From positions 1-64,000 of the forward strand of contig NZ_JNZA01000037.1 in NCBI RefSeq assembly GCF_000717345.1: a stretch of DNA of 64,000 nucleotides, given 5' to 3'. Numbering within the stretch: position 1 is the stretch's first letter; each line of letters begins with the position of its first letter. The notes beneath the pieces were generated by a model. The model did not search any database, was not told the origin of the DNA, and saw only the letters and a program-made list of their open reading frames with translations. Source of the stretch: Streptomyces lydicus (lineage in GTDB: Bacteria > Actinomycetota > Actinomycetes > Streptomycetales > Streptomycetaceae). Shown here piece by piece: positions 20,620 to 51,233 of the stretch. The translations under genes and the position numbers were made by a program.

Positions 20620-20711
20620 TGCACGTCCCTCCAGATAGGGCACCCCGATTGATCGAATCCGGTGCCGAACGCCTGGTCAGAAGAGATCTTTGCCGGTTTC
20701 GAGCGGGTGTT

Positions 20712-20739
20712 CCAGAACCTTTACTTCCCAGCTAAATTG
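20712..20739 (-). promoter_or_regulatory. mpp cluster 28-bp motif, copy upstream of mppO
   Basis: On the minus strand this copy begins CAATTTAGCTGG and ends GTAAAGGTTCTGG. It aligns without gaps to five other copies. It overlaps the mppN stop codon (the TAG within TTTAGCTG) and ends 93 bp before the mppO start. Confidence 0.75.
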
Positions 20740-21907
20740 CCCCGTCCTTCACAGGGAGCGCACTGGCCACTTCAGTCACAGGAGTCTTGGTCCGGGCCCG
20801 CGACCAGCGGCGCATCGCCTGCTTCTCCACCCCGTTGTGCAGCAGCCACGCGAGCAGCAGCGAGACCGCGAAACCGGCGGCGATCAGCGCGATGCCGGTC
20901 GGCACGCTCCAGGTGTGGCCGACCAGTTCGCCCTCCTCCTCGGTGTGGCCGAGCAGCAGGTGGCCGTACTTGAGGACCAGGTTGTGCAGCAGGTAGAAGG
21001 CGAAGGAGAGCTCGCCGAACCAGACCATGACCTTGCCGCCGAACAGGGTGCCCCGGCCGTCGGCGTCCGCCACCGCGCAGGCGGCGGTCAGCAGGGCGAC
21101 CGGCAGCACGGTCACCGCGCTCAGCCGGAACAGGTACGGCACCTGCTGGGCGGCCCAGTACGCCGCCACCACCAGCAGCGCGGCCGGCAGCACCGGCAGG
21201 CGTATCCACTTGCCGGTCAGCACGATCCGGGCCATCAGCATGCCCAGTACGCACTCCAGCAGCCGGAAGAGCGGGAAGAAGTAGGCGAACCAGTACTGGC
21301 TGACGGACACCCCGCCGAGCGGCATCTGCGGGGTGTCCGGCAGCGCGGTCAGCGCGATCGCGGGGACGGCGGCCACGCCGACGACCGCGGCGCCGACCCA
21401 GTACCACAGCCGGGCCGGAGCGATCTTGTTCACCAGGACCAGCAGGGCCGGGAACAGCGCGTAGAACACCACGTCCACCGCCAGCGACCAGCTGACGCTG
21501 TTGCCGGTGTCGGTGAACGCCGGGTCGGGCACCCAGGACTGCACGAGGAAGAGCTGGGTGACCGACGGCAGCAGCCCGACGCTCAGCCCGACCGACGTGA
21601 TCAGCACCAGGGCGAGCACGTACGTCGCCAGGTGGTTGGGGAAGACCCGGAAGAAGCGCCGCCGCCAGAACTTGCGCGGGGTGTCCGTCGGCCGGTACGA
21701 CCACGTGATCACGAAGCCGCTCAACACGAAGAAGAACGACACCGCGACATAGCCGGTGTTCCCCATCGCGTCGAGGAAGCCCCAGCTCGCCTTCGCGTCG
21801 CTGAAGACCCCCTCGAACGCGGCATGGGTGAGGAAGACCGGCAGCATGGCGATGAAGCGCAGCCCGGTCAGGGATCTGAGGTTCGGGTTGGATGGTCGTG
21901 TCTGCAT
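20732..21907 (-). CDS. mppN: MppN, acyltransferase family 3 membrane protein (isovaleryl transfer)
   Basis: The 391-residue integral membrane protein has about ten hydrophobic segments and is of the OafA/acyltransferase-3 family. The R-X10-H motif is visible at the start of TM1 (R in LRFIAM, H in FLTHAAFEG). These enzymes move acyl groups onto sugars across the membrane. Mannopeptimycins carry an isovaleryl ester on the terminal mannose, which fits. ATG 21907 follows GAGGGG. It is a close tandem paralogue of mppM, with long blocks identical or nearly so. The symbol is given from family and gene order; which paralogue places which acyl group cannot be told. Confidence 0.85.
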   Translation of the reverse strand: MQTRPSNPNLRSLTGLRFIAMLPVFLTHAAFEGVFSDAKASWGFLDAMGNTGYVAVSFFFVLSGFVITWSYRPTDTPRKFWRRRFFRVFPNHLATYVLALVLITSVGLSVGLLPSVTQLFLVQSWVPDPAFTDTGNSVSWSLAVDVVFYALFPALLVLVNKIAPARLWYWVGAAVVGVAAVPAIALTALPDTPQMPLGGVSVSQYWFAYFFPLFRLLECVLGMLMARIVLTGKWIRLPVLPAALLVVAAYWAAQQVPYLFRLSAVTVLPVALLTAACAVADADGRGTLFGGKVMVWFGELSFAFYLLHNLVLKYGHLLLGHTEEEGELVGHTWSVPTGIALIAAGFAVSLLLAWLLHNGVEKQAMRRWSRARTKTPVTEVASALPVKDGAI

Positions 21908-21933
21908 GCGGACCCCTCGCCAGATGGGCGACA

Positions 21934-21978
21934 GGTGGTGCGGGCGGGACGGTGCGCTGCAACGGCGGCCGCACCACC
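21934..21978 (-). other. Hairpin in the mppN leader
   Basis: GGTGGTGCGG (21934-21943) pairs perfectly with CCGCACCACC (21969-21978) across a 25-nt loop, in the 197-bp stretch between the 28-bp motif and the mppN start. It could be an mRNA leader structure or a transcription terminator of mppM read-through. Function unknown. Confidence 0.45.
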
Positions 21979-22104
21979 GTCTGCTGTTGGATGACCCGGG
22001 TGCGGTCGCCGGCACCGGACCTCCACGGCGCGCGCGGACTTCTGGCAGCGGTCAGCCTTGCTCCCCCGTTGTGCGGGAAGTTTGGCCGAGACCTTTCGCA
22101 CACT

Positions 22105-22132
22105 CCACACGTTTCACTTCGCAGCTAAGTTG
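22105..22132 (-). promoter_or_regulatory. mpp cluster 28-bp motif, copy upstream of mppN
   Basis: The minus strand reads CAACTTAGCTGC at the start and GTGAAACGTGTGG at the end. It contains the TAG stop codon of mppM and lies about 198 bp before the mppN start. Confidence 0.75.
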
Positions 22133-23309
22133 CCGGCACCTTCGCCGGCGGGCGCGGTGCCGCCTGGCGCCGCGGACGGGACCACCGACGCATCACCGGC
22201 TTCTCCACGCCGTTGTGCAGCAGCCAGGCGAGCGCCATCGACACCACGAACGACAGCGCGATCATCCCGATGCCGCCGGCGGTGCCCCAGGTCCGGGGCA
22301 GCACCCCGCCGTCCGCGTCGCGCGGGCTGAGCAGGACGTGCCCGTACGCCAGGATCACCTGGTGCACGAGGTAGAAGGCGAAGGAGAGCTCACCGAGCCA
22401 CACCATCGCCCGGCTGCCCAGGGGAGTGCCCCGGCCCTCGGCGTCCGCCACCGCGAGGGCGGCGGTCAGCAGCGCGAGCGGGACGACCAGCACCGCGCTC
22501 AGCCGGTAGAGGAAGGGCAGCTGCTGGGCGACGACGTACCCGACGGCCACCAGGGCCGCGGCGGGCAGCACGCCCAGGCGTATCCACTTGCCGGTCAGGA
22601 CGATCCGGGCCATCAGCATGCCCAGCACGCACTCCACGGCGCGGGAGAGCGGGAAGAAGTAGGTGAACCAGTACTGGCTGCGCGAGACACCGCCCACCGC
22701 CATCGCCGGGGTGTCCGGCAGCAGGGTCAGCGCCACCGTGGGGAGGGCGACGACCAGCAGGGCCACCGCACCGGCCGCGTACCACAGGCGAGTTGGCTTG
22801 ATCTTGTTCACCAGGAGCAGCAGCACCGGGAACAGCGCGTAGAACGCCACATCGGCGCCCAGCGACCAGGTGACGGTGTTGCCGGTGTCGATGAACAGCG
22901 GGTCGGGCACCCAGGCGTGCACCAGGAAGAGCTGGGCGACCATGCCGGGAACGTCGAACGCGGTGCCCGCCGCCAGCATCAGCGCCACCGCGAACACATA
23001 GGCCACGAGGTGGTTGGGGAACACCCGGAACGCCCGCCGCCGCCAGAACCGGCGGGTGGTGTCGGTGGAGCGGTACGACCAGGTGATGACGAAGCCGCTG
23101 AGGATGAAGAAGAACGACACCGACGCGTAGCCGGCGGAGCCCATCGCGTCGAGGAAGCCCCAGCTCTTCCTCGGATCGGTGAAGACGCCCTCGAACGCCG
23201 CGTGGGTGAGGAAGACGGGTAACAACGCCACGAACCGTAAGCCCGTCAGGGACCGCAGGTTCGGGGTCGGTGGTGTCGGGCGTGCGGTGTGGGGGGTGGT
23301 GGTCGGCAT
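22125..23309 (-). CDS. mppM: MppM, acyltransferase family 3 membrane protein
   Basis: The 394-residue multi-pass protein is a paralogue of MppN in the same family, with the R-X10-H motif in its first membrane helix. It is probably a second acyltransferase acting on mannose residues of the glycopeptide. ATG 23309 has AAGGG upstream. Codons 24 and 30 are both TTA (at 23238-23240 and 23220-23222), in positions where MppN uses common Leu or Met codons. Two bldA-dependent codons so early make this gene a likely developmental checkpoint in acylation. The symbol is given from gene order and family. Confidence 0.83.
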   Translation of the reverse strand: MPTTTPHTARPTPPTPNLRSLTGLRFVALLPVFLTHAAFEGVFTDPRKSWGFLDAMGSAGYASVSFFFILSGFVITWSYRSTDTTRRFWRRRAFRVFPNHLVAYVFAVALMLAAGTAFDVPGMVAQLFLVHAWVPDPLFIDTGNTVTWSLGADVAFYALFPVLLLLVNKIKPTRLWYAAGAVALLVVALPTVALTLLPDTPAMAVGGVSRSQYWFTYFFPLSRAVECVLGMLMARIVLTGKWIRLGVLPAAALVAVGYVVAQQLPFLYRLSAVLVVPLALLTAALAVADAEGRGTPLGSRAMVWLGELSFAFYLVHQVILAYGHVLLSPRDADGGVLPRTWGTAGGIGMIALSFVVSMALAWLLHNGVEKPVMRRWSRPRRQAAPRPPAKVPAT

Positions 23310-23451
23310 ACGGGACCCTTCGCCGGCCGCGCGGCGCACCGCCGAAGTGGCCCGGACGGGTCCTGAGGACCGACCCGGGACCCCCGCACCGAGGTCGCGC
23401 GGACATCTCCAGTTGGTGATCTCCGAGCATCGCCGGAACCCCGCGGTGGTT

Positions 23452-23479
23452 CCATGTCCTTTACCGTGGAGTCAAGTTG
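23452..23479 (-). promoter_or_regulatory. mpp cluster 28-bp motif, copy upstream of mppM
   Basis: The minus strand begins CAACTTGACTCC and ends GGTAAAGGACATGG. It lies in the intergenic region after mppL and 143 bp before the mppM start, with no overlap of a coding sequence. It is therefore not conserved for protein-coding reasons. Confidence 0.75.
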
Positions 23480-23519
23480 GCAGCTCACCGGCCGGTCCGG
23501 CGCACCGGCTGCGGGCCGG

Positions 23520-24857
23520 TCAGGAGGCGCGGGGTCCGGGGGCCGGGAACCGCCGCAGGGTGGGGCTGGCGGTCGCCGCGAGCGCGACCAGCACCAGGCA
23601 GCCGGCGCAGAGCAGCACCGCGGCCGTGCCCCCGCCGGCCAGACCGGTCAGCGCCCCGCCGAGCGCCGGGCCCGCCACACCGGCGCCGCCGGAGCAGAAC
23701 CCGGCGACCCCGCTCATCCGGCCCCGCAGCGCGTCCGGCGTGACCGTCAACTGGTACGTGAGGACCGTGGTGTTGGCGAGCGGTGCGAAGAAGGCCATGA
23801 CGGCCAGCAGCGCACCCTGGGGCAGGCCGGTCGGCACCACCGCCATCAGGGCGGCGCCCAGGGCCGCGGTCCAGGTGAAGCCCAGGAGGATCACCGGCGG
23901 CCGGGCCACGGCGTGCAGCCGGGCCGCGAAGAGCCCGCCGAGCAGCCCTCCGGCGCCGAAGCAGGCCATCGTCAGGCCCAGTTCGCCCGGGCCGACCCGG
24001 TCCTCGCCGGACATGGCGAGCAGCACGATCAGCAGGGCGCTGAAGACCAGGTTGGTGACCATCATCCACGCCATCGTCGTGCGGATCACCGGCTGCCCCA
24101 GCACCCAGCGGAACCCGGCCGCGATGTCCCGGCCGGCCGGCTCCCCGGCACCGTCCGCGCCGTCCGTACCGTCCGCCTCACCCGTACCGTCCGCACCGTT
24201 GGCGGCCGGCGTGCCCGCCCCGGCCGCCGTGCCGGCCCGCCCGCGCGGCAGCCGCAGGAAGCACAGCGCCACCGACGACAGCGCGAACATCACCGCGTTG
24301 GCCAGGAACGGGCCGAGCGGCAGCGCGGAGAAGAGGAAACCGGCGACGCCCGGCCCCACCAGGGTGGCGACGTACGGGCGGGCCGCGTTGCGGGCCACCG
24401 CCGTGGACAGCTGATCGGGCGGCACCACCTGCGGCAGTGCCGCATGCTCGGCCGGGTCGAAGACCGAGCCGAGGAGCCCCTCCAGCACCACCACCAGCAG
24501 CACGTGCCAGAACGCGTACCGGTCCAGCAGCAGCGCACCGGCCAGGCTCGCCATGCCCAGCACCCGCAGCAGCTGGCAGCCCAGCATCAGCGCGCGGCGG
24601 TCCCAGCGGTCGGCGATCATCCCCGCCGGCACCACCGCGACCATGTGCGCGGCGGCCAGCGCGGAGGACGCCAGCCCCAGCTGGAGGGGCGAGCCGTGGC
24701 GGGCCAGGATCAGCAGCGGGACGGCCACCGCGGCCACTTCCATGGCCAGTTCGGACATCAGCTGGCTGGACCACAGGATGTTGTAGGCGCGGTTGCGGGA
24801 CAACGGCACGGCCGCGCCACCGCGGGCCGCCGCCGTCTCCGTGGGGGCGGTGGTCAT
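23520..24857 (-). CDS. mppL: MppL, major facilitator superfamily exporter
   Basis: The 445-residue protein has about 12 membrane helices of the MFS, most like DHA3/enterobactin-exporter-type transporters. The loop 2-3 signature GMIADRWDRRALML is present and a Gly/Ala/Thr-rich hydrophilic loop divides the halves near residues 210-245. It is likely the drug:proton antiporter for the finished antibiotic or a late intermediate, and may contribute to self-resistance. ATG 24857 is 18 bp after the mppK stop, so it belongs to the mppJ-A-B-K-L unit. The symbol is inferred from gene order. Confidence 0.85.
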   Translation of the reverse strand: MTTAPTETAAARGGAAVPLSRNRAYNILWSSQLMSELAMEVAAVAVPLLILARHGSPLQLGLASSALAAAHMVAVVPAGMIADRWDRRALMLGCQLLRVLGMASLAGALLLDRYAFWHVLLVVVLEGLLGSVFDPAEHAALPQVVPPDQLSTAVARNAARPYVATLVGPGVAGFLFSALPLGPFLANAVMFALSSVALCFLRLPRGRAGTAAGAGTPAANGADGTGEADGTDGADGAGEPAGRDIAAGFRWVLGQPVIRTTMAWMMVTNLVFSALLIVLLAMSGEDRVGPGELGLTMACFGAGGLLGGLFAARLHAVARPPVILLGFTWTAALGAALMAVVPTGLPQGALLAVMAFFAPLANTTVLTYQLTVTPDALRGRMSGVAGFCSGGAGVAGPALGGALTGLAGGGTAAVLLCAGCLVLVALAATASPTLRRFPAPGPRAS

Positions 24858-24875
24858 CCCGGTTCCGTCCCTGTC

Positions 24876-26213
24876 TCAGGCTCGGGGGGCGAGGCGCCCG
24901 GTGATCTGGAGGTAGTCGATGCGCCCGGTGGCCGGGTCGGGCACGAAGCGGCCCGGGGAGCGGGCGCCGCTGCCCAGCTCCCGCATGACGAACCGCAGGT
25001 CCGGGGTGCACAGCAGCTCGGAGTGCGGGGCGCCGCCGAAGCTCAGGAGCAGCCCGCCGCCGTCCTCGCGCAGCACCTCGAACGTGGTGTCGCCGTTGGT
25101 GTAGCGGCCCAGGCAGCCGTCCGGGGGCGGCGGTGCCGCGGCGCCGGCCGGCGGCTCCGGGTCCGGCCGGTCGCCGACCGCCAGGCCCAGTTCCCGCAGC
25201 CGGGGCACCAGGTCGTCCCACAGCGCCTGGCCGGTGTTGGCGTTGGTGGTCAGGGCGACCGCGGAACCGTTGACCGGGTCGAACCGCAGATGGCAGGAGG
25301 TGCCGTCACCGGTGCCGTTGTGCCCGTAGACGTCCTCCGCGCCGTCGTCGAACCGCGCCCAGCCCAGGCCCCAGCCGTCGGCCATGCCGTACGGCCCGAC
25401 GGCCATCGAGGCGAGCTGGTCGAAGCACATGTCGTCGGCGGTCGCCCGGTCCAGCGGCTCGGGATCCGGACAGCCGGCGAAGTACAGCCCGGCGAACGCC
25501 AGGAGGTCCCCGGCGCTCAGGGCCAGCGCGCCGTTGGGCATCTCGACCTCGGGCAGGTCCTGCTCGGGCACCGGCACGATCCGGCCGCGGGCCGCCTGCA
25601 CGGCGTGCCCGGCGGCCACCGGCCGCCCGGTGCGCTCCGGCCCGGCGACGAACGCCGGCCGCAGCCCCAGGGGTTCGAGCAGGACCGCGCCGATCGCCTC
25701 CTGCCAGGTCATCCCGGTCACCGCCTCGATGAGCCGGCCCACGACGACGTAGCCCACGTTGGAGTACGAGAAGACCGTGCCCGGCGGATGGGTCAGGTCC
25801 GTCCTGCGGCAGTGCCGGGCCACCCACCCGGCGCGGTCCCCGCCGGCCTCCGCGGTGCCCTCGGCCACGTCGGACGGCAGGCCCGCGGTGTGGCTGAGCA
25901 GCTGCCGGAGGGTGACCAGGGCGCCCGCGCCGAACTCCGGCAGCTGGTCGATCAGCGGCTCGTCGAGGTCCACGTCCCCGTCGGCCACCAGGATCATCGC
26001 CAGCGCCGCGGTGAACGGCTTGGTCAGCGAGCCGACCGGGAAGGCGGTGTCCGGCCCGACGGGCGCGCCGGAGGCGGTGTCGGCCACCCCCGTGTGCACC
26101 AGGAACCGCGCGCCCTCGTGGAAAACGGCGAGCTGCGCGCCGGGCACCCGGTGGCGGGCGGTCAGCTCGGTCAGGATGCCGTGCAGTCTGTCGTGGTCCA
26201 TTGCGTTGTCCAT
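24876..26213 (-). CDS. mppK: MppK, penicillin-binding-protein-like peptide cyclase/esterase
   Basis: The 445-residue serine hydrolase is of the class C beta-lactamase/PBP fold. The nucleophile motif is Ser62-Leu-Thr-Lys65 in FPVGSLTKPF, the second motif Tyr150-Ser-Asn152, and a GHNGTG segment stands where the third motif is expected. A C-terminal lipocalin-like extension (about residues 370-440) is present. There is no signal peptide, so it acts in the cytoplasm. PBP-type thioesterases such as SurE release and cyclise peptides from NRPS lines that end in an E domain, and MppK has been grouped with them. MppB ends in E and lacks a TE, so MppK is the expected macrocyclase. ATG 26213 is 3 bp after the mppB stop. 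Confidence 0.9.
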   Translation of the reverse strand: MDNAMDHDRLHGILTELTARHRVPGAQLAVFHEGARFLVHTGVADTASGAPVGPDTAFPVGSLTKPFTAALAMILVADGDVDLDEPLIDQLPEFGAGALVTLRQLLSHTAGLPSDVAEGTAEAGGDRAGWVARHCRRTDLTHPPGTVFSYSNVGYVVVGRLIEAVTGMTWQEAIGAVLLEPLGLRPAFVAGPERTGRPVAAGHAVQAARGRIVPVPEQDLPEVEMPNGALALSAGDLLAFAGLYFAGCPDPEPLDRATADDMCFDQLASMAVGPYGMADGWGLGWARFDDGAEDVYGHNGTGDGTSCHLRFDPVNGSAVALTTNANTGQALWDDLVPRLRELGLAVGDRPDPEPPAGAAAPPPPDGCLGRYTNGDTTFEVLREDGGGLLLSFGGAPHSELLCTPDLRFVMRELGSGARSPGRFVPDPATGRIDYLQITGRLAPRA

Positions 26214-26216
26214 GCC

Positions 26217-29200
26217 TCATCGCTCCGATATGTGCCGGGCGATGGCGCGCAGCGCGTCGGCGAAGTCCTCGGCCACCTTGTCGATGGTGGCCCTGTGGTG
26301 AACGTTGCGGGAGAAGTACCAGGTGAAGCGGAGCCGCCCGGCCTGGACGGCGCCGACCACCTCCACCGGGTGCCCGGTCAGCTCGTCCGGCCGCTGCTCC
26401 CTGCCGATGGGGTCGCCGAACGCGTGGTAGAGCTCGCTCTCCCCGGCGCGCTGGGCGTCGTCGGCCTGCCCGTGGTAGTTGAACACCACCTGCGCCGGGG
26501 CCCGGTCGGCGAGGGCGGCCCCCGGGGTGCCGGCCGGGCCGAGCCGGCGCAGCGCGCCGTAGCCGAAGCCGTTCCCGGGCAGCGACCGCAGCTGCCGGCG
26601 GACGGCCTTGATCAGCGCCGGCCAGTCGTCGCGGTGCTCGCCCACGTCGAGGGCGACGGGGTACTCCGTGGTGAACCAGCCGACGGTCCGCGACAGGTCG
26701 ACGTCGTCGAAGAGTTCCTCCCTGCCGTGCCCCTCGGTGTCGAACACCACCCGGCGCTCACCGGTCCAGCGGGCCAGCACCCCGGCCAGCGCGGCGTACA
26801 GCACCTCCTGGAAGCGGGTGCGGAACACCCCGGCGGACCGGCGCAGCAGCACCTCGGTGAGGTCCTCGGGCAGCTCCACCGTGACGGTCTGCACCGACTC
26901 GACCAGCGGCGGTCCGCCGCCGTCGCGGGGGATGTCGGTGGCGGGCGGCAGCGCCTGCCAGTACGCGGCCTGGCCGTCGAGCCCGCCGTCGGCGACGTGC
27001 CCGGCGAGCCGGTGCGCCCACTGCCCGAACGAGCTGCCCGGGGCGCCCAGCGACACCGGTTTGCCGTCGCGGGCCTGGACGTAGCCGGCCTCCAGGTCCG
27101 CCAGCAGGATCCGCCAGGAGACCCCGTCGACGACGAGGTGGTGGGCGGTGAGGAACAGCGTGGGCCGCTCCCCGGGCCCGAAGACGAACAGCAGGGCGGC
27201 GAACAGCTCACCGGCGGCCAGGTCGAGCCCGGCGTCGGCCGCCGCAGCCAACTTGTCCATCGCGGCGGCGCGTTGGCACGGCTCCAGCGCCGACAGGTCG
27301 TGCCGGCGCAGCACGTCCACCGATCGGGGCGGCGTGGCGTACTGGTGCCACGCTCCGTCCTCGCGGACGAAGCGGTGCCGCAGTGCCTCGTGGTGGCCGG
27401 TCAGCGCGGTGAGCGCCTGCCGCAGCGCCGCCTCGTCGGTCTCCGGGTGCAGCTCGACCACGACCGACTGGGTGAAGTGGTGCGGGGCGAGCGGCCCGGC
27501 GGCGAAGTAGTCGTGCTGGACGGGGGTGAGCGGGATCGCCGCACCGCCGTCGTACGCCACCGGCGCCGGCGCGGACTCCGCGGGCCGGGCGGCGGCCCGT
27601 TCGGCGGCCAGCGCGGCCAGCGGCCGGATGCTCTGGTGGACGAACAGGTCCTTGGTGGTGACCGCGAGGCCGGCCTGCCGCATGCGCTGGACGGCCTGGA
27701 TGCTCAGCAGCGAGTCGCCGCCCAGCCGGAAGAAGTTGTCGTCCGTCCCCACCCGGGAGACGCCCAGCACCCCGGCCCAGATCTCCGCCAGCGCCCGCTC
27801 GGCCTCGGTCTCCGGCGCGCGGTAGGCGGCGGGCGCCCCGTCCTCGTCCGGGTCCTCGGGCTCCGCGGCGGACGCGGCGTCCCGCAGGGCCGCGGCCCGC
27901 CGCTCCTCCGCCGCGTCCGCCGGCGCGAGGCCGTCGAGCGCGTGGTGGTCCTCCAGGACCGCGGCGAGCAGCTCCTGGAAGCGGGCGGCCAGCCGCTCCA
28001 CGGTGCCGGGGTCGAACAGCGCGGTGCTGTAGCCGACCGCGGCGCGCAGCCCGTCCGGCTGGTCGACGAAGTCGAAGCTGAGGTCGTGGCTGACCTCCCC
28101 GCTGACGAACGGGACCTCGGTGACGGTCAGCCCGGGCAGCTCCGGCGGGGCCGACCGGTCCGCCTCCAGCCCGACGAACACCTCGACCACCGCGTTGCGG
28201 CTCGGGTCGCGGCGCGGCCGCAACACCTCCACCAGCCGGTCGAACGGCACCTCCTCGTGCTCGAAGGCTTCCAGGACGGTGGACCGGACCGTGTCGAGGA
28301 GGTCGCCGAAGGTGCGGCTCTCGTCGACGGTGGTGCGCACCGCCACGGTGTTGACGAACAGGCCGACGAGCCCCTCGAGTTCCTGCCGCGAGCGGCCCGC
28401 CGACGGGGTGCCGACGACGATGTCGCGCTGACCGGTCCAGCGGGCCAGCAGCAGCTGGACCGCGGCGGTGAGCACCATGAACAGCGTCGCGTCGTGCCGG
28501 CGGGCCAGGTCCTTCAGGCCGGCCGCCACCCGCGGCTCGATGTCCAGGAGCAGCATCCGGCCGGCGGAGCTGCGGACCGCCGGGCGCGGCCGGTCGGTGG
28601 GCAGCGCCAGCGGCCGTACGTCGGCCAACTTCCGCTGCCAGTACGCGAGATGGCCGTCGAGGGCCGGGCCGGACAGCATCCGGCGCTGCCAGACCGCGTA
28701 GTCCGCGTACGTCACCGGAAGCGGCGGAAGGGCCGGTTCCGTGCCGTCCAGGGCCGCGGCGTACAGGACGCCGAGCTCCTCGCAGAGCACCGCCATCGAG
28801 CCGCCGTCGGTCGCGATGTGGTGGATGACCAGCAGCAGCAGATGATCGCGGGCCCCGAGCCGGAACAGTTCGGCGCGCAGCACCGGCCCGTCGGTGAGGC
28901 TGAACGGGCGGGCCGCACTCCGCTCGACGTGCGCGCGCAGCGCGTCCTCACGCCGCTCCTCGGGCACCCCGGTCAGGTCGGTGAGCGCACAGGCCACCTC
29001 GCCCGCCGGGTGCACGATCTGCCGGGCGCCGCCGTCGGCCGCCGCGTAGGTGGTCCGCAGCGCCTCGTGCCGGGCGACGAGCCCGGTCAGTGCCTGCCCC
29101 AGCGCCGCGCGGTCCGGCTCACCGCCGAGCCGCAGCCCGGTGACGATGTGGTACTCGCTGCTGTCCGGGTCGAAGTCGTGCAGGAACCACTGGCGTTGCT

Positions 29201-40100: not shown

Positions 40101-43100
40101 GAGCGGATGACCTGGAGGGGCTCGGCGAGGCCGTCCCAGACCAGGTCGCTGCGGAGCACCGGGGTGCGGGCGGCGACCCGCTGCCAGGCGTCGGCGAGCA
40201 GTTCCGGCTCACGGATGTTGTCCAGGGGCAGCTGGAACTGCTCGACGTACAGGCCGTGTTCGGCGTCCATCAGGTGGTGGAAGAGCAGGCCGCTCTGCAT
40301 GGGCGTCAGCGGGTAGGCGTCCTCGGCCGGGCCGCCGGCCGCGGACAGCCGCGCCACCCCGGTCGCGTCCAGGCCGCTCAGCGCGAACGCCGGGCGGGCC
40401 GGTGCGTCCGGCGCGTCCGCCGGCTCCCGCTCCACCGTCACGACGGGGGCCAGCGCCGCGATGGTCTGCCGCCGGAACAGGTCCTTGGAGGTCAGCCGCA
40501 GACCGGCCCGGCGGGCGCGTACGGCGACCTGGAGCCCGGCGATCGAGTCGCCGCCCAGGGTGAAGAAGTTGTCGTGCACGCCGATCCGTTCGAGGCCGAG
40601 CACCTCGGCCCAGACGGCGGCCAGCGTCTCCTCGATCTCGCCGCGGGGCGCGACGTAGGGGGCGTCGCCGCCCGCGGCCGGCTCCGGATCGGGCAGCGCC
40701 CGCCGGTCGATCTTGCCGTTCGCGGTCAGCGGCAGCGCGTCGAGCAGCACGAAGGCCGACGGCACCATGTACTCCGGCAGGGCGGCGGCGAGGTGCCCGG
40801 CGAGCTCCCGCGGGTCGGGTGCGGCGTCCTGGGCGGCGACGACGTAGGCCACCAGGGACCGGCGACCGGGGGCCGGCTCGCGGACCGTGACGAAGACCTG
40901 CGCGAGGTCCGGGTGGCGGGCCAGCTCGCTCTCGATCTCGCCGAGTTCGATGCGGTAGCCGCGCAGCTTGACCTGGTTGTCGACCCTGCCGAGGAAGTCC
41001 AGCGTGCCGTCCGGCAGCCGTCGCACGATGTCTCCGGTCCGGTACATCCGCGCTCCGGGCGGCCCGAAGGGGCAGCCGACGAACCGCTCGGCGGTCAGGT
41101 CGGGGCGGCCGAGATAGCCGCGCGCCAGGCCCGCGCCGGCGAGGTACAGCTCGCCGGGCACCCCGACGGGCACCGGGCACAGCCGGTCGTCGAGGACGTA
41201 GACGGCGGTGTTGTACAGCGGGGCGCCGATGGACGGCAGCCCGGGCGGCGCGGTGGGGCCGAGCGGCTCCACCACCGCCTGGGTGGCGGCGACCGTCGCC
41301 TCCGCCGGCCCGTAGGCGTTCACCAGCGCGAACGGCAGTCCGGGCTGCGGCCGGCGGCGCAGCGCGTCACCAATGACCAGGACGGTGCGCAGCCGGGTGG
41401 TGGCGATCGCGGGGACGTCCAGCAGGGATTCGATGCGCGGGGTCGGCAGGTAGGCGACCGTGGTGCCGCGCTCGGCGAACCACTCGACCAGCGCCGTCGG
41501 GTCGTCCAGCGTCTCCTGGTCGGGCTGGTCCACCCGGGCGCCCGCGCACAGGTACGGCCACACCTCGCCGACCGCCACGTCGAAGGCCAGCCCGACCACG
41601 GAGGAACCACGGTCCTCGGGGCCGACGGCCAGTGCGTCGTTGTGCCAGGCGCAGTAGTCGGTCAGCGCGCTGTGCGGCACCGCGACACCCTTGGGCCGCC
41701 CGGTGGACCCGGAGGTGTAGACGATGTACGCGAGGTCGTCGGGGCCGGTCTCCACCAGGGGGTCGTGCCCGGGGCAGCGGGCCACGTCCGGCGCGGCCGC
41801 GTCGAGGTCGATGACGGCGGCTCCGGTCGGCGGCAGCAGACCGGCCTGCCGCCCGGTGGTCAGCAGCACCGGGGTGCCGGTCTCCGCCAGCAGGTTGCCG
41901 AGCCGCGCCGCCGGGGTCTCCGGCGCGGTCGGCACGTACGCGCCGCCCGCCTTGAGCACCGCGAGCATCGCCACGATCAGCTGCGGCCTGCGCTCCAGGT
42001 TCAGCACGACGGGCGTGCCCCGGCCGACGCCCAGCGCCGTCAGGTAGTGCGCCAACCGGTTGGCGTGCAGCTCCAGTTCGGCATACGTCAGGGTCCCCTC
42101 GCGGTGCGTGACGGCGAGCGCGTCGGGGGTCCGGCGGGCCCGCTCGGCGAACTGCCGGTGCACGGGGAGCGTGGTCGGCGGCTCGACGGCGGTGTCGTTC
42201 CAGACGGTCAGCAGCGTCTCGCGCTCGTCCGCCGTCAGCAGCGGCAGGTCGCGCACCTGGGCGCGCGGCGCGGTGCGGACGGCGTCCAGCAGCTCCCGCA
42301 GATGGCCCGCCAGCCGCTCGACGGTCGCCGCGTCGAACAGGTCGGTGTTGTACTCGACCATCACGTCCAGCGCGCCGGCCCGCTCGGTGAACTCCACCGT
42401 GAGGTCGAAGATCGCGGCCGGCCGCGGCAGCGCGACGGTCGCGGTGCGCAGCCCGGCGAACTCCTCGGCGCCGGCCGGGGCGTTCTGCAGCAGCAGCATC
42501 GCCTGGATCACCGGCGTACGGCTCGGGTCCCGCTCGGCGCCCAGCGCGTCCACGACCTGGTCGAACGGCACGTCCTGGTGCGCGAAGGCGCCCAGCACGG
42601 TCTCCCGCACCTCGCCGAGGAAGTCGCCGAACGGCAGCTCGCCGCGCACGTCGGAGCGCAGCACCACGGTGTTGATGAACGAGCCGACCAGGCGCTCCAC
42701 CTGGGGGTGGTCGCGGCCGGAGACGGCGGTGCCCAGCGCGATGTCCTGCTGCCCGGACCAGCGCGCGAGCAGGACCTGCAGCGCGGCGGTCAGCGTCATG
42801 AAGAGGGTCGCACCGTGGGCGGCGCCGACCTCCTTGAGACCGGCCACCAGCCGGCGGTCGAGGGTGAAGCGGTGCGCCGCACCGGACGAGGTCTTCACCG
42901 CGGGCCGGGGCCGGTCGGTGGGCAGCTGGAGCGGGGCCACGCCCGCCAGCCGCTCGCGCCAGTAGGTGAGCTGCGGCGCCAGCCGGCCGTCGTCGGCGGT
43001 GGCGCGCTGCCAGGCGGCGTAGTCGCCGTAGCGGACCGGCAGCGGCTCCAGGGCGGCGGGCACCCCGCGGCACGCGGCGTCGTAGCGCAGGCTCAGCTCG

Positions 43101-45451
43101 TCGGCGATCAGCCCCATCGACCAGCCGTCGGTGGCGAGGTGGTGCAGGCCGATGACCAGCACGTGGTCGCGTTCGCTGCGGCGGATCAGCAGCACCCGCA
43201 GCACCGGCCCGGCGGCCAGGTCGAACGGCCGGCCGGTCTCCTCGGCCAGCAGCCGCTGCAGGGCGGCCTCCTGCTCCTCGCCGGTCAGCGCGGAGAGGTC
43301 CTCCAGGGTCAGCGGCACCGGGAAGCCCTCGGCGGGGGCGATCACCGCGGCGGGCCGGCCGTCCTCGGACACCACGGTCGTGCGCAGCGGCTCGTGACGG
43401 GTGATCAGCCCGGCCAGGGCGGTGCGCAGCGCGGCCGGGTCGAGGGGGCCGCGCAGCCGCAGCGCCGAGTGCACGTTGTACTCGACCTCGCCGGGGTCGA
43501 GCTCGTGGAACAGCCAGAAGCGCTGCTGGGTGAAGGACAGCGGCAGCGCCCGGCCGGTGCGCGGCACGGCCGGTATCTCCTCGGCCCGGGCCGCGCCCGC
43601 CGCCTCGGGCCGGCGGGCCAGCGCCCGGACGGTGGGGGCGGCGAAGAACTCCGCGGCCGACAGCCGCAGCCCCAGCGCGGCCCGCATCCGCGACAGGACG
43701 CGGACCACGGACAGCGAGTCACCGCCCAGGTCGAAGAAGTCGTCGTCGGCACCCACCTGTGCCACGCCGAGCACCTCGCGCCAGATGGCGGCGAGCGCCT
43801 CCTCGGCGGGCCCCTCCGGTGCGGTGTACTCCGCGTCGACGCTGTCCTGGCGGGTCGGCGCGGGCAGCGCCCGGCGGTCCAGCTTGCCGTTGGCGGTCAG
43901 CGGGAAGGCCGCCATGGCGTGGAAGGCGGTGGGGATCATGTAGCCGGGCAGGCGGGTGGCCAGCGCGGCGCGCAGCCGGGACGGCGTGGGGCGGGCGGTG
44001 CCCGACGGCACGACGTACGCCACCAGCCGGCGCTCCCCGGACGCCTCGTCGCGCACCACCACCGCGGCCTGGTCAACCGAGGCGTCCTGTGCCAGCGCGT
44101 GGGAGATCTCGCCCAGCTCGATCCGGAAGCCGCGGATCTTGACCTGGTCGTCGCTGCGCCGCAGGTACTCCAGACCCCCGTCGGGCAGCGGCCGCACCAG
44201 GTCGCCCGAGCGGTACATCCGCGCGCCGGGCGGCCCGAACGGGCAGGCCACGAAGCGCTCGGCGGTCAGCCCGGGACGCCCCGCGTAGTTCCGGGCGAGC
44301 CCGGGTCCGGCCACGTACAGCTCGCCCTCGGCGCCCACCGGGACCGGCCGCAGGTCCTCGTCGAGGACGTGGAAGGTCAGGTCCGGAATGGCCACGCCGA
44401 CGGCGCTGCCGGGGGCGTGCGCGGCGAGCTCGCGGTCCAGCGCGAGGAAGGAGGAGTGCACCGTGGTCTCGGTGATCCCGTACATGTTGACCAGCGTCGG
44501 GCCGCCGGCGGTGCCGTCGGGGTGCCGCTCGTACCAGTCGGCGAGCTTGCCGAGGTCCAGTGCCTCACCGGCGAACACCACGTACCGCAGGGCCAGTCGG
44601 TCGCCCAGCTCCGGGTTCTCCCGGTCGGCGGCCATCAGCTGGTAGAACGCCGACGGCGTCTGGTTGAGGACGGTCACCCGCTCCTCGACCAGCAGCCGCA
44701 GGAAGTCGGCGGGGGCGCGGGTGGTGGCGTGCGGGACGACCACCAGCTTGCCGCCGTGCAGCAGCGCCCCCCAGATCTCCCAGACCGACACATCGAAGGC
44801 GAAGGAGTGGAACAGCGGCCAGACGTCTTGCTCATCGAAGCCGTACCAGTGCGCGGTGGACGACAGCAGCCGCCCCACGTTGCTGTGCGGGACGACCACG
44901 CCCTTGGGCCGGCCGGTGGAGCCGGAGGTGTAGATGACGTAGGCGGGGTTCTCCGGCGACCGCGGGGCGGCCGGGGCGGACGGCTGCCGCGCCCCGGTCC
45001 GCTCCCGGAGGTCGGCCGCCTGCCGCTCCCACTCCTCCATGACCAGCCAGTCGGTCCCGGCCGCGCCGTCCGCGGAGTCCGTCCCGGCCGCGCCGGCCAG
45101 CTCGTCCCGCAGGCCGGCGGTGGTGATCGTCGTCACCGGCCGCGCGTCGCCGAGGATGTAGGCGATGCGGTCGGCCGGGTACTCCGGGTCGATCGGGACG
45201 TAGCCCGCGCCGGACTTCAGCACGGCGAGGAGGGCCACGACCAGGTCGGCGGAGCGGGGGAGCAGCAGCGCGATGAACCGCTCGGGGCCCGCGCCCCGTG
45301 CGGCCAGCACGGCGGCGAGGCGCTCGGCCCGGGCGTCGAGCTCGCGGTAACTCACCGCCCGGCCCTCGAAGACGACCGCTGTACGGTCCGGTGTCCTCGC
45401 GGCCTGCTCGGCGAACAATTCATCCAGGCGGCGATCGCGCCACTCACCCAT
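37166..45451 (-). CDS. mppA: MppA, NRPS modules 1-3 (A-T-C-A-T-C-A-T)
   Basis: The protein has 2761 residues and starts at ATG 45451, six bases after GAGGGGG. Markers by residue: A1 [11 protein letters not shown] ~179, T1 LGGDS ~577, C2 HHLATDGWS ~772, A2 ~1246, T2 LGGDS ~1635, C3 HHLLLDGWS ~1849, A3 ~2320, T3 LGGDS ~2705. It starts directly with an A domain, so it is the initiation protein. There are no E domains, matching three L or achiral residues; for mannopeptimycin these are Ser, Gly and beta-methyl-Phe. A2 has the LPTPR segment common in glycine-activating domains, and A3 has D-G-W-T at the pocket start, compatible with an aromatic substrate. Assignments to individual modules are inference. 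Confidence 0.96.
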
Positions 45452-45492
45452 GGAAAACCCCCTCAGCCGACGTGGTCGATGTGCGTGTGCGG

Positions 45493-46633
<1,141 letters not shown>

Positions 46634-46642
46634 GTCGGCAGA

Positions 46643-46680
46643 CGGCCCGGTCCGAAAGCGGAAACTTTCGAACCGGGCCG
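46643..46680 (-). terminator. Terminator after mppI
   Basis: CGGCCCGGT (46643-46651) then CGAAAG (46653-46658) pair with CTTTCG (46665-46670) and ACCGGGCCG (46672-46680) with one internal mismatch and a 6-nt loop. It lies 32 bp beyond the mppI stop and just before the motif that precedes mppJ, so it marks a transcription-unit boundary. Confidence 0.85.
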
Positions 46681-46712
46681 CGGGCGGTGCGGGGTCGGAG
46701 ACCGGAAAACCG

Positions 46713-48248
46713 CTACAGATAGGCGTTGTAGTGCCGGTAGGCCGGCCACAGTGCGGACCACGGCTTCTTGCGGTCGTGGCACACCGTGATCGCCACGCCC
46801 TGCTCGGGGTTGTCGATGCCCAGCCGGTTGTCGACGTGGTCGACGACCTTGCAGGAGGCGAACCCGGCGTCGAGCAGGGACCGTTCGATGTTGCCCACCG
46901 CGACCACCACATCGGCGCTCTGCGGCGGCGGTCCCCACTTGTGCAGCTCGTTGTGGCCGCTGTAGACGGCCGGCAGCCCGTGCCCGTAACGGTCCAGCGC
47001 CCCGGCCTCACCGAAGTTCTCGGTGAGCACCACCGCCCGGGAGCGCTCCCCGGCCGGCAGCGCCCGGTAGGCCGCCTCGGTCTGCTGGACCAACCGGGGC
47101 CAGCCGACCGTCTCCAGCGGCATGCTGGCCACCTGGAAGTCGCGCAGCCCGCTCTTGGGGATCACCGGCAGCGACAGCAGCATCTGCGCCGCCGCGCTGA
47201 GCACCAGCGAGACCGCGAGCACCGACAGCCGCAGCTTGCGGCGCCCCGCCCACCGGTCGGCCCGCACGCACCCGGCGGCGAGCAGCGCGACCAGCAGCCC
47301 ACCGGTGTAGTCCGGCCGCCCGCCCTCGATGAGGTACGACGCCGCGGTGGCCGCCAGGTACCCGACGCCCAGCGCCCGGACCGGCTTCCACTCCGGCACC
47401 CGGAACAGCTTCACCAGCCCGATCACGCACAGCACGAACAGCGCCGGGCCGAACAGCAGGATCAGGTTGGTGGCGAACATGGCCCGGTTGGCCTCGCCGT
47501 CGGTGCCGGCCAGCCCCTCCGCCATCTGGAGCTGCGGGAAGTCGTGGGTGACCTGGTAGATCAGGTTCGGCGCGCCGATGACCAGCGCCAGCGCGATGCC
47601 CGCGTACAGCCGCCGGTCGGCGAACACCTTGCGCGGCCCGACCAGCGCCACGCCCAGCAGCAGCGCCACCGGCAGCAGCAGCACGATGTACTTCGCGTAC
47701 AGCGCCACGCCGACCACGACCCCGGCCCACAGCCACCACTTGCCCTCGCCGCGCAGCAGCACCCGCAGCGCGAACAGCAGCACCGCGGCCCACGCCACGG
47801 TGTCGAAGCTGGTGGTGAGGATCCAGTGGCCGAAGCTCAGCACCATCGTCGAGGTGGCCACCCCGAACGCGGTCAGCGTCTGCGCCCGCCGGGAACCGCC
47901 CAGTTCGGCGGCGATCATCGCGCCGAGCGCGGTGACCGCCGCGGCGCACAGCACCGCCGGCACCCGGATCGCCCACATGCTGTCGCCGAAGACCGCCATC
48001 GCGGCCCGTACGGCCATCGGCAGCAGCGGCGGCTGGTCCACGTAACCCCACGCGAAGCCGTGCTCGCCCAGCAGGCGGAAGTACAACTCGTCGGCGTGGT
48101 AGCCGTATTCACCCGCGAACGCGAACAGCAGCACCGCCAGCCCGGCCACCACCACCGCCACCGGGCGCCAGGCCACCGGCTCGGGCCGCAGCCCGCGCGC
48201 GCCGGCCCCGGCCGCTGCCCTGGTATCCCTGTCGAGGGACGTCGTCAT
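46713..48248 (-). CDS. mppI: MppI, polyprenol-phosphate-mannose-dependent mannosyltransferase (GT39-like)
   Basis: The 511-residue integral membrane glycosyltransferase has about 10-12 membrane segments and the GT-C fold of PMT/ArnT enzymes. The catalytic acidic pair is in the first external loop (HADELYFRLLGEHG) followed by WGYVDQPPLLP, and a soluble C-terminal domain ends the protein. It transfers mannose from polyprenol phosphate on the outer membrane face, onto Tyr-O, the enduracididine ring N or a first mannose. ATG 48248 and GTG 48251 are both possible; GAGG precedes them. It is a tandem paralogue of mppH, with near-identical C-terminal blocks. Which paralogue uses which acceptor cannot be told. 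Confidence 0.9.
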   Translation of the reverse strand: MTTSLDRDTRAAAGAGARGLRPEPVAWRPVAVVVAGLAVLLFAFAGEYGYHADELYFRLLGEHGFAWGYVDQPPLLPMAVRAAMAVFGDSMWAIRVPAVLCAAAVTALGAMIAAELGGSRRAQTLTAFGVATSTMVLSFGHWILTTSFDTVAWAAVLLFALRVLLRGEGKWWLWAGVVVGVALYAKYIVLLLPVALLLGVALVGPRKVFADRRLYAGIALALVIGAPNLIYQVTHDFPQLQMAEGLAGTDGEANRAMFATNLILLFGPALFVLCVIGLVKLFRVPEWKPVRALGVGYLAATAASYLIEGGRPDYTGGLLVALLAAGCVRADRWAGRRKLRLSVLAVSLVLSAAAQMLLSLPVIPKSGLRDFQVASMPLETVGWPRLVQQTEAAYRALPAGERSRAVVLTENFGEAGALDRYGHGLPAVYSGHNELHKWGPPPQSADVVVAVGNIERSLLDAGFASCKVVDHVDNRLGIDNPEQGVAITVCHDRKKPWSALWPAYRHYNAYL

Positions 48249-48302
48249 CACGCCTCACTTCCCGCTGAGTTGTCGGTTCGCACCCGCCCCGGCCGGGGCA
48301 CC

Positions 48303-49802
48303 TCAGCCGCTCAAGTAGTGGTAGGCGGGCCACAGCCGGGCCCAGGAGTCCTTGCGGCCGTGGCAGACCGTGACCGGCTTGCCCTGCTCGGCGTTCGCCA
48401 CGCCGACGCCGTTGTCGATCCGGCCGACGACGCGGCAGGAGCGGAACCCGGTGTCGAGCAGGGACCGTTCGATGCCCACCGCGACCACCACATCGGCGCT
48501 CTCCGGCGGCGGGCCCCACTTGTGCAGCTCGTTGTGGCCGCTGTAGACGGCCGGCAGCCCGTGCCCGTAGCGGTCCAGCGCCCCGCTCTCGCCGAGGTTG
48601 CCGGCGAGCACCACGGCCCGCGCCCGCTCCTGCGGCGACAGCGCGTCGTACGCCGCGCGCACCCGCTCCGCCAGCCGGGGCCAGCCCACGCTCTCCAGGG
48701 AGATGTTGTTCAGCGGGACGAACGGGGAGTTCTGCGGCAGCACCGGCAGCGCCATCAGCACCTGGAGCACCGCACCGGCCGCCAGCCCGGCGCACAGCAG
48801 CGCCCGGCGCAGCCGGCGTCGCCCCATCCACCGGTCGGCGGCCACCGCGCCCGCCGCGAACAGCCCGATCAGGAAGCCGCCGACGTAGTCGGGCCGGCCC
48901 CCGCCGTAGATCGTCAGCGCCACCCCGACCGCGAACGCCGGCGCCAGTGCCCGCACCGGCCGCCACGCCGGGTCCCGCACCAGCTTCACCAGCCCGGCCA
49001 CCCACACCACCGTCAGCACCGGCCCGAGCAGGATCACCAGGCTCGGCAGGAAGATGATCCGGTTCATCGGCCCGTCGGTGGCCCCCAGGGCGTCGGCCAT
49101 CTGGAGCTGCGGGAAGCCGTGGGTGGCCTGGTAGACCAGGTTCGGCGCGCCGACGACCAGCGCCAGCGCCGCGCCCGCGTACAGCCCGCGCGACCGGAAC
49201 ACCGTGCGCGGCCCGGCCAGCGCCAGCCCCACGGGCAGCGCCACCGCCGGCAGCGCCACGATGTACTTGGCGTACAGCGCCAGGCCCAGCACCGCCCCGG
49301 CCCACAGCCACCACTTGTCCTCGCCGCGCAGCAGCGCGCGCACCACGCACAGCAGCAGCGCGGTCCAGGCGAGCATGTCCAGGGTGGTGGTCACCATGAT
49401 GTGGCCGACGCTGAGCACCAGAAACGAGCTGCCCAGTCCCAGCGCGGCCAGCGTCTGGGCCCGCCGGGTGCCGCCCAGTTCGGCGGTGATCAGTGTCCCG
49501 AGCACCACCACGGCACCCGCGCACAGCGCCGCCGGCACCCGGATCGCCCACACCGAGTCACCGAGCACCTGCGCGGTGGCGTGCACCAGCGCCGGCACCA
49601 GCGGCGGCTGGTCGGTGTAGCCCCACGCCCAGCCGTGCTCGCCCAGCAGCCGGAAGTACAGCTCGTCCACGTTGTAGCCGTACCTGCCGGACACCGCGAG
49701 CAGCAGCACGACGACGCCGCTCGCGACGCCGGCCGCCGGCCGCCAGGCCGGCCGTACGGCAGGGCCGGTGTCCGCCCGCACCTCTTCAGGGACCGTCAGC
49801 AC
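48303..49802 (-). CDS. mppH: MppH, polyprenol-phosphate-mannose-dependent mannosyltransferase (GT39-like)
   Basis: The roughly 499-residue GT-C membrane enzyme is paralogous to MppI. It has the DELYFRLLGEHG loop with the Asp-Glu pair, WGYTDQPPLVP, multiple membrane helices, and a C-terminal domain with YGHGLPAVYSGHNELHKWG. It should mannosylate the cyclic peptide using donor made by MppG. The start is uncertain. GTG 49802 gives a protein whose N-terminus aligns with MppI; GTG 49823 and GTG 49913 are in frame upstream, and none has an ideal ribosome-binding site. The mppI start follows 54 bp after the stop. Confidence 0.88.
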   Translation of the reverse strand: MLTVPEEVRADTGPAVRPAWRPAAGVASGVVVLLLAVSGRYGYNVDELYFRLLGEHGWAWGYTDQPPLVPALVHATAQVLGDSVWAIRVPAALCAGAVVVLGTLITAELGGTRRAQTLAALGLGSSFLVLSVGHIMVTTTLDMLAWTALLLCVVRALLRGEDKWWLWAGAVLGLALYAKYIVALPAVALPVGLALAGPRTVFRSRGLYAGAALALVVGAPNLVYQATHGFPQLQMADALGATDGPMNRIIFLPSLVILLGPVLTVVWVAGLVKLVRDPAWRPVRALAPAFAVGVALTIYGGGRPDYVGGFLIGLFAAGAVAADRWMGRRRLRRALLCAGLAAGAVLQVLMALPVLPQNSPFVPLNNISLESVGWPRLAERVRAAYDALSPQERARAVVLAGNLGESGALDRYGHGLPAVYSGHNELHKWGPPPESADVVVAVGIERSLLDTGFRSCRVVGRIDNGVGVANAEQGKPVTVCHGRKDSWARLWPAYHYLSG

Positions 49803-49919
49803 GTCTCCCGCCGCCTCCCGCACTCCGCCTGCCCGTCGTCGCCGGTCCCCGTCCGCCGGTCGGCGTCCGGGTCCCGGTGAGATCACCGCTCGGAGTCTGC
49901 GGTCCGGCCCCACGGCCCG

Positions 49920-49947
49920 CCACGAGTTTGCGTTGTCAGCTAAGCAG
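49920..49947 (-). promoter_or_regulatory. mpp cluster 28-bp motif, copy upstream of mppH
   Basis: The minus strand begins CTGCTTAGCTGA and ends CGCAAACTCGTGG. The TAG stop codon of mppG lies within TTAGCTG. It is about 118 bp before the preferred mppH start. Confidence 0.7.
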
Positions 49948-51139
49948 CGCGCTCACCTCGTGCTTCGCGCGCCGCGGCGGTGCGGGCCACCGCCTGTTCC
50001 TGGCGCGCCGCGGCGCCCCTGCGCCGGTAGATCAGCGTGTCGACGAGCAGGAACCGCGCCAGGAACACCACCACCAGGCTGACCACGGTCGCCGGCACCG
50101 GCCCGATCCCGGCCTGCTCCACCAGCACCATCATCAGCGGGATCCGCGCCAGCAGGTCCGCGTTGCTGAGCGCCGCGAACCCCAGCAGCCGGCCCGCCCA
50201 GTGCCCCTGCTTCGCGCTGCGGTAGACCAGGAAGTCCAGCAGGACGAAGTTCCACAGCACCCCCAGCTGGTTCGCCAGCACCTCCGCCACCGCGTAGTGC
50301 AGCGACGTGGCGCCGGTCAGCGCCCACAGCGCCAGCAGGTTCGGTACGAACCCCGAGACCCCGATCAGCCCGAAGGCCACCATCCGGGCCCGCTTGTCGC
50401 TGCTGCGCAGTTCCGCGAGGTGCCGCAGGAACCGCAGCCCCTCGCGCACCGTCGACTTCGACTCGCCGGCGAACCGCTCCCCGAACTCGTACGGCACCTC
50501 GGCCACCCCGCGCGGCCGGCAGCGCACCGCGAGCTCCAGCAGAATCTTGTACCCCAGCGGCCGCAGCCCGCCGTCCTGCCCGGCCCCGTCCTCGCGCCCG
50601 GCGCGCTCGATCGCCTCCCGGCGGATGGCGAAGAACCCGCTCATCGGGTCGGAGACGCCGCGCAGCAGGCGCGGGAACAGCGCCTTGGTCACCGCGGTCG
50701 ACACCCCCGACACCGCCATCCGGTACCCGCCGTCCAGACCGCCCCGGCTGCCGCCGTCCGCGTACCTGCTGGCGACCACCAGCTCCGCCCCGGCCCGTTC
50801 CCCCGCCTCCACCAGCTCCGGCAGCAGCCGCGGCGGATGCTGGAGATCGGCGTCCATCACCACGATCCACGGCGCGCTGGTCCGCGCGATCCCGGCCACC
50901 ACCGCCCCGCCGAGGCCCCCTTCGGGCTCGTCCCGGTGCAGCACCGACACCGGCATCGGGCACCGCACGGCCGCCTTCTCGATCACCTCCGGGGTGTCGT
51001 CCGTCGAGTCGTCGACGAACAGCACCTCGACGTCCCACTCCGCCGGAAGCGCCGCACACACACCGTCCAGCAACTCATCGATGTTCCCCGCCTCGTTGAA
51101 CGTGGGCACGATCAACGACACCGCCGGCACGGATGCCAT
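49940..51139 (-). CDS. mppG: MppG, polyprenol-phosphate-mannose synthase (GT2 with GtrA-type membrane domain)
   Basis: The 399-residue protein has an N-terminal GT-A glycosyltransferase family 2 domain: LIVPTFNEAGN at the start, VDDSTDDT for nucleotide binding and the metal motif DADLQHPP. The C-terminal part (about residues 235-375) has four membrane helices of the GtrA type. This is the layout of bacterial dolichol-phosphate-mannose synthases, which load mannose from GDP-mannose onto a polyprenol carrier for GT-C enzymes, here MppH and MppI. ATG 51139 follows GGAGGAG. Its own copy of the 28-bp motif lies 67 bp upstream. It is the first mpp gene on this side. Confidence 0.92.
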   Translation of the reverse strand: MASVPAVSLIVPTFNEAGNIDELLDGVCAALPAEWDVEVLFVDDSTDDTPEVIEKAAVRCPMPVSVLHRDEPEGGLGGAVVAGIARTSAPWIVVMDADLQHPPRLLPELVEAGERAGAELVVASRYADGGSRGGLDGGYRMAVSGVSTAVTKALFPRLLRGVSDPMSGFFAIRREAIERAGREDGAGQDGGLRPLGYKILLELAVRCRPRGVAEVPYEFGERFAGESKSTVREGLRFLRHLAELRSSDKRARMVAFGLIGVSGFVPNLLALWALTGATSLHYAVAEVLANQLGVLWNFVLLDFLVYRSAKQGHWAGRLLGFAALSNADLLARIPLMMVLVEQAGIGPVPATVVSLVVVFLARFLLVDTLIYRRRGAAARQEQAVARTAAAREARGERAA

Positions 51140-51205
51140 GGCTCCTCCTGAGGGGTCCGCAACTGTCACCACAGCAGTCACAAGAGCCCAGGAGAAACCG
51201 GAACT

Positions 51206-51233
51206 CATCATGTTTTACGGAGAAGTCAACCTG
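51206..51233 (-). promoter_or_regulatory. mpp cluster 28-bp motif, copy upstream of mppG
   Basis: The minus strand begins CAGGTTGACTTC and ends CGTAAAACATGATG. It lies in the 264-bp divergent gap between mppG and the conflict-type operon, 67 bp before the mppG start, so it is entirely non-coding. Confidence 0.7.

Follow-up and report, generated by a model that had tools for sequence, protein, structure and literature searches.

The mpp cluster and its promoter boxes

The stretch of DNA analysed here, referred to as the window, comprises 64,000 nucleotides of a Streptomyces lydicus contig (NZ_JNZA01000037.1, positions 1 to 64,000 of assembly GCF_000717345.1) and contains the mpp cluster, an antibiotic biosynthetic cluster of the mannopeptimycin type. 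The cluster genes concerned fall into groups that all lie on the minus strand: mppG; mppH-I; mppJ, two non-ribosomal peptide synthetase (NRPS) genes, mppK and mppL; mppM; mppN; and mppO-P-Q-R with a regulator gene and an MbtH gene. Judging from this layout, the groups are probably operons. In front of mppO, mppN, mppM, mppJ, mppH and mppG lies a 28-bp box, one per gene group and always in the same orientation, as described in a sequence-only reading of this DNA. The observation is real and larger than first stated: the box belongs to a promoter architecture common to clusters with regulators of the type of MppS, the protein encoded after mppR. Genes were called with a simple in-house script rather than a published caller, and domains were assigned using Pfam and NCBIfam; the domain scans covered 36 of the 38 called window genes, the two NRPS genes being left out.

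All six copies were recovered where they had been placed, each on the minus strand, and align without gaps. C at position 1, TT at 5-6, CT at 9-10 and AA at 19-20 are present in every copy, while GT at 16-17 and TGG at 26-28 are each present in five of the six. The copies are alike beyond chance, because in all six leave-one-out tests a matrix built from five copies ranked the remaining one above every other non-training site among the 127,946 positions of the window. The boxes, with their putative operators and predicted core promoters, are as follows.

20686 to 20739, minus strand: mppO box and core promoter; operator 20735-20720, -35-like TGGAAC 20714-20709, -10-like AAAGAT 20691-20686
22079 to 22132, minus strand: mppN box and core promoter; operator 22128-22113, -35-like TGGAGT 22107-22102, -10-like CAAACT 22084-22079
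23426 to 23479, minus strand: mppM box and core promoter; operator 23475-23460, -35-like TGGAAC 23454-23449, -10-like GATGCT 23431-23426
46580 to 46633, minus strand: mppJ box and core promoter; operator 46629-46614, -35-like TGGATC 46608-46603, -10-like GAGACT 46585-46580
49894 to 49947, minus strand: mppH box and core promoter; operator 49943-49928, -35-like TGGCGG 49922-49917, -10-like CAGACT 49899-49894
51180 to 51233, minus strand: mppG box and core promoter; operator 51229-51214, -35-like ATGAGT 51208-51203, the weakest -10, TCTTGT, 51185-51180

Positions 5-20 of the box form an imperfect inverted repeat, TTNRC-N6-GYNAA, with half-sites 11 bp apart and a centre near -48 of the predicted start. 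The dyad nature of the box is evident because the mppM box in the homologous cluster of another Streptomyces genome, G311, is fully palindromic (CTTGACT-CCAC-AGTCAAG). Motif positions 26-31 (TGGA..) occupy the place of a -35 element, and a -10-like NANNNT is found 17 bp further on, at the fixed positions 49-54. This was the only one of 71 downstream offsets scanned at which A2 and T6 occur together in at least three of the six promoters; both are present in five, the exception being mppG. In G311 and in a further Streptomyces genome, G175, the -10 of mppH lies one base farther away. The TGG of the motif is accordingly the start of a poor -35 element with the dyad directly upstream of it, and an operator just upstream of a poor -35 would occupy the place usual for an activator.

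A -10 with A2 and T6 at 16-18 bp from the -35 places five of the six promoters with the sigma-70/HrdB type, but the -35 is degenerate, and a standard sigma-70 scan at the mppJ box found no consensus promoter. SARP and StrR proteins are cluster-specific activators with several operators per cluster, the arrangement also proposed for MppS, and the StrR-type box is a long inverted repeat, TTCGACTG-N11-CAGTCGAA. Inspection of the six copies by eye did not reveal this consensus, their half-sites being short and their centre 6 bp, and the BTAD domain expected of a SARP was found in none of the 36 window genes scanned.

The reading had left open whether the binder was an activator or an alternative sigma factor. 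Its proposal of a shared cis-element is retained, and the binder is most likely an activator. The suggestion that the motif constitutes the -35 and -10 of an alternative sigma factor is in keeping with its fixed orientation and spacing before genes, but is most improbable, because the core is an inverted-repeat operator, separate sigma-70-type -35 and -10 elements are present, the -10 lying downstream of it, and a search confined to the window detected no sigma-factor domain in the 36 genes scanned.

The wholly non-coding character attributed to at least three copies applies to those of mppM and mppJ, and also to that of mppG if the gene starts at 51139, but the mppO, mppN and mppH copies share the last 8 nucleotides of the preceding gene. 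At these three loci (20739-20732, 22132-22125 and 49947-49940, respectively) the TAG stop codon of the upstream gene forms box positions 6-8. As to the terminator that one copy was said to follow, a hairpin can be seen by eye before the mppJ copy, but a terminator scan of 46560-46760 was negative, because the hairpin is not followed by a run of T. The six-site matrix also gave a score of 17.9 to a candidate seventh copy on the plus strand at 20305-20332, but this falls within mppO, on the strand opposite to the gene, and was judged a coding coincidence.

Distribution of the box within and between genomes

When the whole 8.18-Mb genome was searched, the strict core TTNNCTNNNNNGTNAANNNNNTGG, from which the mppH and mppG copies depart, proved to be confined to the mpp cluster, with four of four matches inside it and a single match to a backwards-pattern control. 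A looser pattern matched 18 times, six of these being the cluster copies and the others scattered, with 12 matches in the control. Among 392 Streptomyces genomes, the strict core with a TGGA end matched in 25: three or four times in each of the four genomes with an mpp cluster (14 in total) and once in each of the other 21. The box and -10 taken as a single pattern gave 19 matches in the 392 genomes, of which 15 are in the four mpp clusters and four occur singly elsewhere, compared with seven in the control.

The clusters homologous to that of the window are found in the Streptomyces genomes G137 (96% DNA identity over 62 kb), G311 and G175 (approximately 86% in the main blocks), and all three have six boxes at the same six places. 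In G311 and G175, 21-28 of the 28 box bases of the window are kept without gaps, whereas only 15-31 of the preceding 60 bases are, except before the mppO box, where the DNA is coding and 39-42 of 60 bases are kept.

The association of the box with MppS homologues was studied in 79 loci, each extending 10 kb to either side of a homologue, although some are shortened at contig ends (1.57 Mb in total; Streptomycetaceae, Pseudonocardiaceae, Streptosporangiaceae and Micromonosporaceae). A general form of the box matched 60 times in these loci, 51 times with the -10 in place (within one base), as against eight and none in the reversed sequences; 130 kb of other DNA yielded two matches, neither with a -10. 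In non-coding DNA alone the corresponding figures are 53 boxes and 50 with a -10, as against one and none in the control, and 48 of those 50 lie at most 400 bp from the following gene. A box conforming to the strict pattern is present in 39 of the 79 loci. Of the other 40, 25 contain a matrix match above every control maximum, the cut-off of 17 having been chosen after viewing the output (the highest control maximum was 16.9) and the matrices having been trained on sites of other loci in the same set. The box is thus seen around 64 of the 79 homologues. A lone box directly precedes an mppO homologue in Amycolatopsis bullii, Actinokineospora, Goodfellowiella and Streptoalloteichus, where MppS and MbtH are encoded nearby and MppU is absent.

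A TTAAG motif near homologues of approximately 35-47% identity, at first a candidate second motif, turned out to be the same box read on the opposite strand, in the form here termed Gln-type after the recognition helix of the associated protein (see below); in promoter orientation it possesses both the TGG and a TANNNT -10. A blind seed search over 15 of the 20 TTAAG-motif loci recovered the box, but ranked start-of-gene words higher. In 21 Streptomyces genomes containing MppS homologues (approximately 185 Mb), the Gln-type pattern with -10 matched nine times (control 1), eight of these at most 36 kb from a homologue and one on a different contig; several of the nine had served motif discovery, while G177:C7:124334 and the match in G015 had not. 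An earlier version of the pattern, lacking the -10, matched 15 times (control 5); of these matches 11 are within 10 kb of a homologue, two farther away on the same contig and two on other contigs.

Direct repeats of the form GTCAG-N6-GTCAG, SARP-like by eye, lie downstream (in terms of the printed strand) and on the opposite strand to the Gln-type box at L061:3260, L062:1797, L063:19353, L066:1908, L067:554, L068:13937 and L069:882, and in L062 a SARP gene lies at the repeats. Perhaps these are divergent promoters served by two activators.

A further mpp-like cluster was encountered in genomes G318 (loci L091, L060 and L092) and G291 (L093, L064 and L094). It encodes homologues of MppK, L, O, P, Q and R, a mannosyltransferase and MppS (42%).

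MppS as the proposed binder

Two sets of regulators are encoded inside the block common to the four clusters, MppS and the MppU/MppV pair.

15148 to 16155, minus strand: mppS, the proposed binder; 335 residues, C-terminal ArsR-type winged helix, TTA at codon 78; its ATG falls within mppR
12764 to 14746, minus strand: mppU-mppV, the rival binder region; mppU, NarL-type response regulator, 14072-14746; mppV, histidine kinase, 12764-13933

The name MppS was assigned by gene order, following a description of Streptomyces lydicus 103 in which a putative transcriptional regulator, MppS, is succeeded by MppT, the response regulator MppU, the sensor kinase MppV, MppW and MppX (PMC5357945). No published site resembling the box was found in the open-licence literature; the binder, which had been thought possibly undescribed, can likely be named as MppS.

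ArsR/SmtB proteins are small, about 100-120 residues, a size that MppS exceeds. Its C-terminal part passes the Pfam HTH_20 model, an ArsR-type winged helix (29.3 bits against a cut-off of 27), but remains below the NCBIfam ArsR/SmtB cut-off (HTH_metalloreg, 35.4 bits against 55). By profile this part matches the ArsR/SmtB winged-helix regulators HlyU, SrnR and NolR (E 1.8e-8 to 6e-5), and NolR also headed a structure search with the MppS model (pLDDT, the predicted local distance difference test, 84), albeit weakly (E 2.1e-4, template modelling score by target 0.63, root-mean-square deviation 8.1). From these regulators MppS differs in its approximately 210 additional N-terminal residues, for which no Pfam match was found even at E 10, in scoring below the NCBIfam cut-off, and in its proposed role as activator of a biosynthetic cluster.

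Comparable regulators have been described, as far as the available parts of the sources extend. FlkW of the cyclofaulknamycin cluster, an NRPS cluster resembling that of mannopeptimycin, likewise belongs to the ArsR family, is cluster-situated and has a TTA codon, but is a proposed regulator only, for which those parts describe no DNA site (PMC8399532); it is likened to MppS by description, not by sequence. The same applies to BtmL of the bottromycin cluster, which encodes a ribosomally synthesised and post-translationally modified peptide: the protein is cluster-situated with a predicted ArsR-like winged helix lacking the metal site, but that helix is N-terminal (PMC7113386). Aurantimycin ArtB was rejected as a relative, as it has 240 residues and is described as belonging to another class of regulator.

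The recognition helix may provide a further link between protein and box. It reads GAS-K-H in one clade of homologues and GAS-Q-H in the other, the lysine being Lys264 in MppS (helix 259-271 of the model). Box position 16 is G in 30 of 31 sites in Lys-type loci and C in all 19 sites in Gln-type loci, or, counted by locus, Lys with G in 20 of 21 and Gln with C in 18 of 18 (Fisher p 3e-10). The count required G or C at positions 9 and 16, exact TGG, a non-coding position and a -10; it left out the three of 53 sites that lack a -10, L170 (no helix match), and the Lys-type loci L105 and L107, where T occupies position 16 of the best sites. Because the Lys form is a single clade in the tree, what was counted is one evolutionary change seen many times, and the p value makes the association look stronger than it is.

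It is unlikely that the box is instead the operator of MppU, with MppS merely travelling along. NarL-type response regulators also bind inverted repeats, and the mpp clusters, together with some relatives, have kept MppU. However, in 25 of the 39 box-bearing loci, considering 10 kb to either side, there is no MppU-like match (E<1e-4); this concerns 12 of 21 Lys-type and 13 of 18 Gln-type loci, and no Gln-type locus has an MppU match of at least 60% identity. Conversely, L105, L107 and L112 encode a close MppU yet have no strict box, although two of the three have a near-match. Comparison between clusters lends good support to MppS as the likely binder.

ArsR-type proteins are mostly repressors, and MppS could bind the box in that capacity, to be released by a metabolite or a late signal. 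This appears highly unlikely, as the dyad is upstream of the -35 rather than over the core promoter, which is itself poor, and a repressor MppS would silence the gene group to which it belongs together with the whole of biosynthesis.

Several observations nevertheless weigh against MppS as an activator acting through the box. A report on the sansanmycin cluster likewise describes ArsR-type proteins as mostly repressors, and there the loss of an ArsR-family gene situated in the cluster, comparable to MppS by family name, had no effect (PMC4572928). MppU, too, is conserved with the mpp clusters proper. No convincing box was found by strict pattern or matrix in 15 of the 79 homologue loci. The cluster of G318 and G291 yielded only two boxes, one ahead of an NRPS gene and the other ahead of the mppP-Q-R homologues; each of the two genomes has three matches overall, including these boxes (control 2 and 4), and one of the boxes has C at 16 despite the Lys in the helix. 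Finally, the Lys/Gln pattern represents one split in the tree, with L116 as an exception, while in L105 and L107 position 16 is neither G nor C.

Weighing these points, the box is very probably the operator of MppS joined to the upstream edge of a core promoter, and MppS a self-reinforcing cluster-specific activator. MppS would occupy the inverted repeat as a dimer, adjacent to an RNA polymerase placed on the degenerate -35 (TGGA..) and the NANNNT-type -10, so that a weak core promoter would fire well only when MppS is bound. MppS would also raise its own expression, because mppS ends the mppO-P-Q-R group, which has a box. The TTA codon in mppS may tie this switch to bldA: such codons are present in 26 of the 79 homologues, compared with 38 of 401 further genes of similar length from these loci, a distribution compatible with bldA control of mppS; mppM and mppQ also carry them. 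One activator with one consensus box in five promoters of a single cluster has been described for SsaA of the sansanmycin cluster, although SsaA is an FHA/LuxR-type protein and so of a family other than that of MppS (PMC4572928).

On balance, MppS probably represents a large family of cluster-situated activators, hitherto undescribed, with a readable protein-DNA code. Its members, found from Streptomyces to Amycolatopsis, Nonomuraea, Umezawaea and Kutzneria, would combine an ArsR-type winged helix with a new N-terminal domain, and act on a box of fixed geometry and -10 offset in which the Lys or Gln of GAS[K/Q]H sets G or C at position 16. Many antibiotic clusters are silent, and the switch that would activate them is unknown. 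If this interpretation is correct, the regulator alone would predict which gene groups of a silent cluster are switched on, and over-expression of MppS-type regulators would be a rational route to waking such clusters. An orphan regulator class would gain a specific, testable target box with fixed promoter geometry, the ArsR-type fold would be seen serving as a pathway activator, and the Lys and Gln clades would be available for studying a change in winged-helix specificity.

Gene layout and neighbouring genes

The remaining genes of the groups, in window coordinates, are listed below.

14851 to 15099, minus strand: MbtH gene after mppS, mppT by gene order
16112 to 20619, minus strand: mppO-P-Q-R, behind the mppO box and running into mppS
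20732 to 22015, minus strand: mppN, acyltransferase
22125 to 23339, minus strand: mppM, acyltransferase
23520 to 46512, minus strand: mppJ, two NRPS genes, mppK and mppL, behind the mppJ box
46713 to 49913, minus strand: mppH and mppI, mannosyltransferase-like, behind the mppH box; mppH start probably near 49802-49823
49940 to 51139, minus strand: mppG, polyprenyl mannose synthase-like, behind the mppG box

Beyond the mppG border, at 53496-54993 on the plus strand and 58146-62279 on the minus strand, are an EACC1-domain gene, a caspase-like (Peptidase_C14) gene and a gene for an nSTAND1-WD40 protein, which are effector-type conflict genes adjoining the antibiotic cluster.

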